A stretch of DNA of 64,000 nucleotides from an uncultured Gammaproteobacteria bacterium. GTDB taxonomy: Bacteria > Pseudomonadota > Gammaproteobacteria > Magnimaribacterales > Magnimaribacteraceae. The DNA lies in contig CAJWDT010000001.1 in NCBI GenBank assembly GCA_913031395.1, forward strand, positions 1 to 64,000, given 5' to 3'. The position numbers were made by a program, and so were the translations under genes. Below the pieces are notes generated by a model that saw only the letters and a program-made list of their open reading frames with translations, did no database searches and had not been told where the DNA came from. Shown here one piece after another: positions 26,025 to 28,422 of this stretch (the first letter of the stretch is position 1; each line of letters begins with the position of its first letter).

Positions 26025-26602
26025 CATATTAGTTTGGGTATCTCTTTTAGAAGTTTAGTGAAAGCAGCCGATCTATGAGAGATTAAATTTTTCTCTTCTT
26101 TTTTAAGTTCGGCAAGATGGAATCCGCTTTTAGTAATAAAAATTGGATCATATCCAAAACCATTCTCCCCTTTAAACTCTGTAGATATTTCTCCATCTAA
26201 AGATCCAAAGCTTTTTATGATTTTTCCTTTATAGAAGCCTACTAAGCAGCATTTGAATCTTGCTGTCCTCTGAGGATCTTTGATTGCTTTAAGATTCTCA
26301 AGAAGTTTAAGGCAATTATCTCTATCTTGGCCCGAATCAGCATACCTGGCAGAATAAATTCCTGGTTCACCATTTAGAATATCAACTTCGAGACCTGAAT
26401 CGTCTCCTATGGCAGGAACTTCAAGAGTATCTGAAATAAATTTTGCTTTAATGAGTGCATTCTCATAGAAAGTTTTCCCAGTTTCGGGTGGAAGGGATTC
26501 TATATTTGCGGGAATAGGAAAAAACTCATATTGAGTATTCTTGGCAAGTTCTTGAAATTCTTTTAATTTACCTAAGTTTTTCGTAGCAATAGCTATTTTC
26601 AT
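26021..26602 (-). CDS. rdgB: XTP/dITP diphosphatase (RdgB/HAM1)
   Basis: MKIAIATKNLGKLKEFQ; TFYENALIKAKF; GDDSGLEVDILNGEPGIYSARYA; GENGFGYDPIF; LISHRSAAF. Confidence 0.96.
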   Translation of the reverse strand: MKIAIATKNLGKLKEFQELAKNTQYEFFPIPANIESLPPETGKTFYENALIKAKFISDTLEVPAIGDDSGLEVDILNGEPGIYSARYADSGQDRDNCLKLLENLKAIKDPQRTARFKCCLVGFYKGKIIKSFGSLDGEISTEFKGENGFGYDPIFITKSGFHLAELKKEEKNLISHRSAAFTKLLKEIPKLIC

Positions 26603-27186
26603 TTTGAAATCTTATACATTGCTGTAGAAGCAAAGATATTTGGTAAAAAAGCTGTCAAAAAGTTCTCATTACCAGCGTTACTGAAAAATCTTTTTTCTAT
26701 TATATTGATACCGCAATCTTCACATAGCAACTCAAAGTCTGAAATTGTACAAAGGTGAATGTTAGGCGTGTTGTGCCACTTATCTGGAAGGGAACTGGTA
26801 ACTGGCATTTTTCCTGAGAGCAAAAGATTAATTCTAGTAGACCAATGACCAAAATTAGGGATGGTCACTATGCTCTCCCTGCCAATTCTAGTGACTTCTA
26901 ATAAAGCCTTTTTGGGCTCTTTTAATACCTGGATTGTTTGACTCATGATTACAGTATCGAAACTCTCATCTTTAAAATTATCTAATCCTTCATCGATATT
27001 TTGCTGAACAACGTTTAGTCCGGACTGGATACAGTTATTTATATTGGATTGATCAATTTCTATGCCCAAAGAAGAGGTATTGAGTTTTTCAGATAAATAT
27101 TTAAGAATTTCACCTTTTCCACACCCAAGATCCAGGATATCGGAATCTTTTTTTACCCAGTTTCTGATAACTTCTAATGTATTCAT
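26599..27186 (-). CDS. metW: Methionine biosynthesis protein MetW
   Basis: VLDLGCGKGEIL-type motif; VVQQNIDEGLDNF; VIMSQTIQVLKEPKKALLEVTRIG; VTIPNFGHWSTR. Confidence 0.95.
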   Translation of the reverse strand: MNTLEVIRNWVKKDSDILDLGCGKGEILKYLSEKLNTSSLGIEIDQSNINNCIQSGLNVVQQNIDEGLDNFKDESFDTVIMSQTIQVLKEPKKALLEVTRIGRESIVTIPNFGHWSTRINLLLSGKMPVTSSLPDKWHNTPNIHLCTISDFELLCEDCGINIIEKRFFSNAGNENFLTAFLPNIFASTAMYKISK

Positions 27187-28296
27187 TTAATTCTCTAAAA
27201 ATGACGAGAGACCATTCACATAATCTTTATCGGCGAACAAAAAAGAATCATGTCCATGCGGACTTTCAATTTCTAAATAACTTACATTTTTTTTAGCCTC
27301 AATAAGCGCATTAACTATTTCTTTAGACCTATCTGGAGAAAACCTCCAGTCTGTAGAAAAAGAAATGACCATTACTTGAGCTTCAATTTCTTGAAATGCC
27401 ATAGATAAATTTCCGTTGAATTTTTCGGCAGGATCAAAATAATCTAATATTTTTGTCATTAAAAGATAGGTATTAGCATCAAAGGACTCAGAAAATACAT
27501 CACCTTGATACCTTAGATAACTTTCTATCTCAAACTCGGCATCAAAACCAAAATTTAATTTATCTTCTTTGAGTTCTCTTCCAAATTTACTCCTCATGGC
27601 CTCTTCAGATAAGTAGGTTATATGACCAATCATTCTTGCTAGTCCTAAACCTTTTTTTGGAGATTTATTTTTTTCTAAATATCTTCCTGACTCAAAATCA
27701 GGATCATTAATTATTGCTTGCCTTGCAACCTCATTGAAGGCGATATTTTGGGCACTAAGCTTTGGTGCAGCGGCTACTATTCCCGCCTTCTTTATTCTTT
27801 TTGGAAAAAGACGCGACCATTCTAGAGCCTGCATACCTCCTAAGCTTCCGCCAACGACTGCATGCCATATTTTTATACCAAGAGAATCAGAAATCATGCT
27901 CTGACATTTAACCCAGTCTTGCACGGTTATGATGGGAAAGTCGGGTCCATAAGTTTCATTCGTTTCTTTATTTATCGAGCTGGGTCCTGTAGATCCATGA
28001 CATCCGCCAATATTATTTGGGCAGACTACGAAAAACTTTTCTGTATCAATTGCTTTTCCGGGTCCTATAAGTGAATCCCACCATCCAGGTCTGTCTTCAT
28101 CATCATAAGTCCCAGCAGCATGATGATTTCCACTAAGAGCATGACAAATAAGAATAGCATTTGAAGCTTCTGAGTTGAGGTCTCCATAGGTTTCGTAGAC
28201 TATATCTATATTGCTAAGGGTCTGACCACATTCAAGATCAAGATCTCCATCAAGAGATAACTTCTTAGCTTCTACGTTTCGTATTGAATTACTCAT
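27187..28296 (-). CDS. metX: Homoserine O-acyltransferase MetX
   Basis: CHALSGNHHAAG; GGCHGSTGPSS; VVGGSLGGMQALEWS nucleophile elbow; ATG at 28296 is preferred because the longer track ORF (TTG 28314) reads through a terminator hairpin. Confidence 0.95.
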   Translation of the reverse strand: MSNSIRNVEAKKLSLDGDLDLECGQTLSNIDIVYETYGDLNSEASNAILICHALSGNHHAAGTYDDEDRPGWWDSLIGPGKAIDTEKFFVVCPNNIGGCHGSTGPSSINKETNETYGPDFPIITVQDWVKCQSMISDSLGIKIWHAVVGGSLGGMQALEWSRLFPKRIKKAGIVAAAPKLSAQNIAFNEVARQAIINDPDFESGRYLEKNKSPKKGLGLARMIGHITYLSEEAMRSKFGRELKEDKLNFGFDAEFEIESYLRYQGDVFSESFDANTYLLMTKILDYFDPAEKFNGNLSMAFQEIEAQVMVISFSTDWRFSPDRSKEIVNALIEAKKNVSYLEIESPHGHDSFLFADKDYVNGLSSFLEN

Positions 28297-28297
28297 A

Positions 28298-28330
28298 AAA
28301 AAACCCGTTCGCAAAAGCTAAACAGGCTTA
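28298..28330 (-). terminator. Intrinsic terminator-like hairpin of metX leader (CCTGTTTAGCTTTTGCGAACGGG followed by T7)
   Basis: Minus-strand CCUGUU/AACGGG stem with inner GC/GC and UUUU loop, followed by seven U just before the ATG. Confidence 0.65.
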
Positions 28331-28336
28331 ATTAAA

Positions 28337-28388
28337 GGCATTAGCTGTATTTTAATTAAACGCCCGCAAGCTATGTCAAATCGGCGTT
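28337..28388 (-). ncRNA. SAM-II-like riboswitch aptamer upstream of metX
   Basis: Minus strand AACGCC-GATTTGACATAGCTTGCG-GGCGTT-TAATTAAAATACA-GCTAATG: 6-bp P1 (AACGCC/GGCGTT), loop CATAGC forms pseudoknot with 3' GCTA(A)TG; GATTTgAC and GCTAA match the SAM-II core. Confidence 0.82.
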
Positions 28389-28393
28389 AAACT

Positions 28394-28422
28394 ATTATAT
28401 TTGAACTATGCTTAGAAACCAA
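28394..28422 (-). promoter_or_regulatory. Predicted sigma-70 promoter for the metX leader (TTGGTT-N17-TATAAT)
   Basis: -35 at 28417-28422, -10 at 28394-28399, spacer 17; predicted start site lands at the first base pair of the aptamer P1. Confidence 0.6.

Follow-up and report, generated by a model that had tools for sequence, protein, structure and literature searches.

The window, the 64-kb stretch of DNA analysed here, belongs to an assembly with relatives among the SAR86 cluster bacteria, a marine group that is abundant, has small genomes and has scarcely been brought into culture. On its minus strand, to which all features described below belong, metX (27187–28296) encodes a homoserine O-acyltransferase of 369 aa (NCBIfam MetX_succinyl, 603.5 bits with a cutoff of 560) and is followed in the operon by metW (26599–27186; TIGR02081, 236.2 bits). 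The gap between yggT and metX comprises 115 nt (28411–28297). Read 5' to 3', the sequence and its comparison with relatives place in it a TATAAT box, a SAM-II-like aptamer, a 14-nt spacer, a terminator-like hairpin, and a U7 tract directly at the metX ATG (28296–28294). The TATAAT sequence (28394–28399) is a candidate -10 box just upstream of P1, the first stem of the aptamer, and almost every metX leader of the genus has a matching -10-like box in the same position. It was not listed by a consensus promoter/terminator scan, because a good -35 element is absent.

The aptamer (28335–28389) is a diverged form of the SAM-II riboswitch and was recognised with two covariance models. Model R1 scores the leader at 62.5 bits, the leader being itself part of the R1 training set. 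Model R2, built only from other leader types without the metX-type leaders of the genus, matches positions 28341–28387 with E=1.4e-6, which is its sole significant match in the 64-kb window (the next one has E=0.64). The 5' strand of P1, AACGCC (28383–28388), pairs with GGCGTT (28364–28359). The L1 segment, GATTTGACATAGCTTGCG (28365–28382), carries the UUGC (28369–28366) that forms P2b with GC(U)AA, and the 3' strand of the pseudoknot is AGCTAA (28341–28346), as read from the sequence and the alignment. Among the 41 aligned aptamers, P1 covaries, with two-sided changes at all six pairs; P1 and P2a together show 53 cells with such changes (15.5 in shuffles) and a covariation score of 0.311, compared with 0.140 for shuffled alignments and reached by none of 500 shuffles. 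P2a also covaries and is 86.6% paired in this set; the leader under study is able to form only one of its two pairs. The motifs GATTTG, TTGC and GCTAA are invariant in 41/41 aptamers, but these bases had been partly fixed by the search pattern used for the collection, and the invariance of P2b is not independent evidence.

Rfam contains no entry anywhere in the 64-kb window, and its SAM-II model, RF00521, gives no match in the metX leader up to E=10 and does not reach the gathering score. The miss reflects the reach of the library model and is not a structural criterion of the SAM-II class; in the same genomes, many metY leaders also fall narrowly short of the cutoff of this model. The SAM-V identity was considered and rejected, as RF01826 gives no match at the site even at E≤10. 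The SAM-II aptamer is present in all 33 SAR86-family metX leaders compared; in the window it sits upstream of the methionine genes metX and metW. Model R1 finds matches in 35/35 genomes of the family and in 121 of the 199 genomes of the order; in its more distant families the metX genes examined are without SAM-II, and other methionine genes do carry it. On sequence and structure taken together, the metX leader is established as a member of the SAM-II class.

The leader shares with the SAM-II family RF00521 (SAM_alpha; PMC1273637) the P1 stem, the GATTTG loop and the UUGC/GC(U)AA pseudoknot, as well as the promoter-like box beside P1, a terminator between P2 and the gene, and downstream methionine genes. 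Promoters beside P1 and terminators after the pseudoknot were already part of the first SAM-II description (Corbino et al. 2005, PMC1273637). It differs from RF00521 in falling below detection (E>10), in having two extra linker bases and a weak A-U rather than C-G P2a, and in the U tract that touches the ATG. For the SAM-II riboswitch of Sinorhizobium meliloti metZ, likewise followed by a terminator and found in another bacterial class, formation of the terminator on SAM binding was predicted and a terminated RNA of ~100 nt was seen in cells (PMC9373788). Leyn et al. 2014 (PMC4239095) presented the metXZ element of betaproteobacteria as new and suggested for it a terminator/antiterminator mechanism, with an arm of the terminator pairing with conserved GC-rich stretches. 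That element shares the gene (metXW), the aptamer core and the terminator with the SAR86 metX leader, and lacks the A-T palindromic linker and spacer of the latter. Five betaproteobacterial metX leaders (L043, L044, L046, L047, L049) score 26.8–38.7 bits with RF00521, two of the five above the cutoff, which suggests that the metXZ element is the same riboswitch, SAM-II. SAM-V has a nearly identical SAM-binding fold and is common in marine bacteria, but it controls translation through its own P2a (PMC6061858).

The terminator-like hairpin, CCTGTTTAGCTTTTGCGAACGGG (28304–28326), has the form CCTGTT-TAGCTTTTGCG-AACGGG, with an energy of -8.7 kcal/mol for the isolated hairpin 28326–28304, and is followed directly by the U7 tract (28297–28303). 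Among the metX leaders of the family, the arms CCTGTT/AACAGG are kept, with a single compensatory replacement of GC by UA that three relatives show, and U7–9 is present in every leader compared except for one clade of three. In genera g2, g5 and g7 the metX start codon lies further from the hairpin and the U7–9 is retained, so the hairpin does not serve solely for contact with the start codon. The hairpin is missing from the output of the promoter/terminator scan because the scan allows loops of no more than 8 nt. Most SAM-II riboswitches have been described as transcriptional (PMC6061858; PMC2258182).

The first-pass annotation had described the locus as a SAM-dependent switch in which the pseudoknot strand AGCTAA (28346–28341), once free, pairs with TTAGCT (28321–28316) inside the hairpin. 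The complementarity is exact, TTAGCT being the complement of both AGCTAA and the AGCT in L1, and U7 and the ATG follow directly as had been read. When the hairpin is shuffled by dinucleotides, an exact 6-nt Watson-Crick match of the AGCTAA core turns up in 1.2% of cases, and in 1.9% for the 12-nt strand ACAGCTAATGCC, rising to ~11–21% if G-U pairs are allowed; for a single leader such rarity is suggestive and not decisive. The proposed extension by ACAG/CTGT fails on geometry: it is not collinear, as CTGT lies 5' of TTAGCT where 3' bases would be needed, and the last two bases of ACAG are also the first two of AGCTAA, making the two helices mutually exclusive. Conservation in relatives, on which the annotation had staked its model, also speaks against the pairing. 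Of the 33 metX leaders, 18 keep the UUAGC partner of GCUAA as a Watson-Crick match, 3 keep it by way of G-U and 12 have lost it; mapped on the metX tree, the losses correspond to about five separate, uncompensated changes. The expected number of AGCUAA/UUAGCU pairs is 0.0 in the leader under study at every length tested, and 0.0–0.1 in the metX leaders of genera g1 and g4. Measured by conservation, the annotation's model is weakened for metX and strengthened for the metY paralog described below.

A different pairing predicted within the same leader appears better suited as the antiterminator. The linker, TTTAATTAAA (28351–28360), and the spacer, TTTAATTAAG (28327–28336), are near-palindromes, which the annotation had mentioned in passing as a further competing hairpin; they form the 5' and 3' strands of an alternative hairpin, and positions 28360–28351 are predicted to pair with 28336–28327 in every metX leader of genera g1 and g4. 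In the alternative fold, 9 bp between UUAAUUAAA and UUUAAUUAA are continued by GCGGGC/GCCUGU and then by AGCU/AGCU, which takes up L1 and the 3' strand of P1, thus excluding the aptamer, and covers the 5' arm of the terminator. Folds of nested leader lengths, the check suggested in the first-pass annotation, adopt it from ~68–72 nt on and leave AGCUAA/UUAGCU unused. At 76 nt, before the 3' arm of the terminator is made, the predicted energy is -17.0 kcal/mol, against -9.8 kcal/mol for P1 combined with AGCUAA/UUAGCU; at 92 nt it is -25.6 against -16.9 kcal/mol for P1 with the terminator. The probability of the terminator in the free RNA is 0.00, whereas its mean is 0.77–0.88 when the upstream part is shuffled and the hairpin kept (p=0.02; the comparison uses free-RNA values, as the constraint imitating the bound state gives ~1 by construction). 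Folding at 20 °C leaves the result for this leader unchanged. The choice of antiterminator is based on a nearest-neighbour energy model that leaves out pseudoknots.

Throughout the genus the core of this helix persists: its seven linker/spacer pairs can all form in 20/20 distinct leaders, with three single changes that all lead to G-U pairs. In these 20 leaders the helix shows no formal covariation and no compensatory change, and shuffles do as well; the p values of single g1 and g4 metX leaders against shuffles range from 0.01 to 0.34. In several relatives the completed terminator is favoured in the free RNA too, and there the order of synthesis must matter, as in a kinetic switch.

The second SAM-II aptamer of the same genome lies upstream of a metY gene encoding an O-acetylhomoserine sulfhydrylase-like protein (G000:C28). 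In this leader a 10-bp helix between GCUAAAUAGG and CCUGUUUAGC is possible, which in nested folds forms and later yields to the terminator; an antiterminator of 10–11 bp has p ~0.001 in shuffles. Before the 3' arm is made, this helix has an expected 8–10 pairs in almost every metY leader, as it has in genus g2 metX, with P1 mostly kept. With G-U pairs counted, GCUAA/UUAGC is kept in all terminator-bearing metY leaders compared. The spacers vary in the opposite sense. The metX spacer has a mean identity of 0.93 (5 distinct among 19) and the loop beside UUAGC varies; in the metY leaders of the same genus CCUGUUUAGC is fixed and the spacer varies after its first bases, with a mean identity of 0.63, an underestimate since two of the 17 rows (G006 and G013) were the neighbouring ompW leader. 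The remaining 15 metY spacers are all distinct. Such mirror-image conservation is as expected if metX uses its spacer and metY its pseudoknot strand. Judged by the predicted folds, AGCUAA/UUAGCU is probably a short form of the strong metY antiterminator, the main one in metY and not in metX. The switch proposed in the first-pass annotation thus stands as to its SAM-II aptamer and the terminator at the start codon, and its GCUAA/UUAGC antiterminator is supported as a device used more generally in the family, most clearly in metY, but not for this metX gene.

We therefore read the metX leader as a SAM-II riboswitch that would switch metXW off by transcription termination, with the linker/spacer helix as the antiterminator, and assign this reading a probability of roughly 0.6. 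In the SAM-bound RNA, P1 and the pseudoknot would hold L1, the 3' strand of P1 and GCUAA, the terminator could form, and RNA polymerase would halt at the U tract. In the absence of SAM, the linker UUUAAUUAAA would pair with the spacer UUUAAUUAAG and the helix would extend from the 3' strand of P1 and L1 (GCGGG, AGCU) onto the 5' arm of the terminator (CCUGU, AGCU), so that the terminator is blocked and metX is read. In metX, AGCUAA/UUAGCU would be a short helix that excludes this one and may play a passing role while the RNA is being made. What sequence and prediction offer is a stem with a U tract and an alternative fold overlapping the aptamer, as in terminator riboswitches. The P1 of a studied SAM-II remains formed without SAM (PMC10907184), which counts against the proposed mechanism, in which P1 must open.

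The competing explanations differ in what they make of the hairpin and its complements. Pairing of the free strand AGCUAA with UUAGCU as the element that breaks the terminator, with SAM acting by sequestering AGCUAA, seems unlikely for metX: the exact complementarity found in only 1–2% of shuffles, and the near-certain prediction of this pairing at 9–10 bp for almost every metY leader and for the g2 metX leaders, are set against its absence from the predicted folds of this leader, a duplex energy of -6.1 kcal/mol compared with -15.3 kcal/mol in metY, and the repeated uncompensated losses. That the hairpin is an ordinary constitutive terminator or attenuator unlinked to the aptamer, with complementarities arising by chance, is very improbable. 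Short complements are indeed common in AU-rich sequence, as the frequency of the 6-bp match with G-U pairs illustrates, but in the family's metX leaders a terminator, adjacent to a SAM-II aptamer, stands right before a biosynthetic start codon, the literature assigns transcriptional control to most members of the SAM-II class (PMC6061858), and metY of the same genome has the 10–11-bp antiterminator with its low p value.

Translational control, in which the ribosome would have no access to the 3' arm of the hairpin or to the start codon, and the U tract would be incidental or secondary, is somewhat less likely again than the AGCUAA/UUAGCU alternative. It draws on the hairpin reaching the ATG and on three leaders, L010–L012 (G001, G006, G014), which form the sister clade of the source genome on the metX tree. 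There the U7 has decayed to UUUAAUU (TTTAATT), the arms have changed together from CCUG/CAGG to CCUU/AAGG, and AAAGG stands 7 nt before the AUG; in this clade a change to translational control, as one event in three close genomes, is plausible from the sequences. The arm AACGGG of the source genome contains no Shine-Dalgarno-like word, a crude count shows no clear Shine-Dalgarno enrichment over random for the genes of the 64-kb window, and U7–9 is kept in the other leaders, including those of genera g2, g5 and g7 with a distant ATG. The suggestion of the annotation that one hairpin acts at both levels finds no recognisable Shine-Dalgarno sequence in the arm of this gene. Returning to termination through the linker/spacer helix, we advance only tentatively the wider scheme in which one genome would hold two sister SAM-II riboswitches with closely similar aptamers, the metY one using the released pseudoknot strand as antiterminator with P1 kept, the metX one a linker/spacer palindrome that opens P1, and in which the metX of the sister clade, its U tract lost and its hairpin now covering a ribosome site, would have switched to translational control.

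The search also returned further SAM-II loci. In L124, L128, L129, L137 and L148 a SAM-II aptamer is followed within ~100 nt by SAM-I/IV (RF01725, 51.6–69.2 bits), and a similar SAM-I/IV sequence motif was seen by eye after SAM-II in L066, L074 and L125. These tandems precede genes of OmpW-like outer membrane proteins and, at L125, a Cys/Met-metabolism enzyme gene; seven examples of the tandem type are already published (PMC9481103). Two consecutive SAM-II aptamers, ~108–112 nt apart, occur at L150 (G184:C29:1844-2003) and L151 (G143:C1:8817-8980), an arrangement also already known (PMC9481103). By sequence, a SAM-II-like element precedes putative TonB-dependent receptor genes at L002/L134 (G000:C8:38704-38777, in the source genome; 25.6 bits with RF00521, 35.6 with R1) and L138, making a SAM-controlled uptake gene possible. 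A short SAM-II-like element lies upstream of a 77-aa protein at L132 (G018:C6) and L133 (G005:C1:1279159); the L132 protein has no Pfam match. A SAM-II subtype with a GTCG/CGAC-like P1, GATTTGATCC and GCTAAAACGG is found at L080–L084, L146, L147, L149 and L152, several of these loci standing before BHMT-like or homocysteine S-methyltransferase genes, with a clear terminator absent.

In general, the combination of SAM-II with a terminator was known, and the new elements are an unannotated, diverged member, a probable antiterminator and the contrast with metY; no description of a SAR86 metX SAM-II was found in the literature searched. The paired metX and metY leaders offer a natural comparison of two wirings of one aptamer to a terminator. 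SAM-II is present in most of the SAR86 genomes searched and its metX copy is invisible to Rfam, and methionine regulation is therefore under-annotated in SAR86 genomes.
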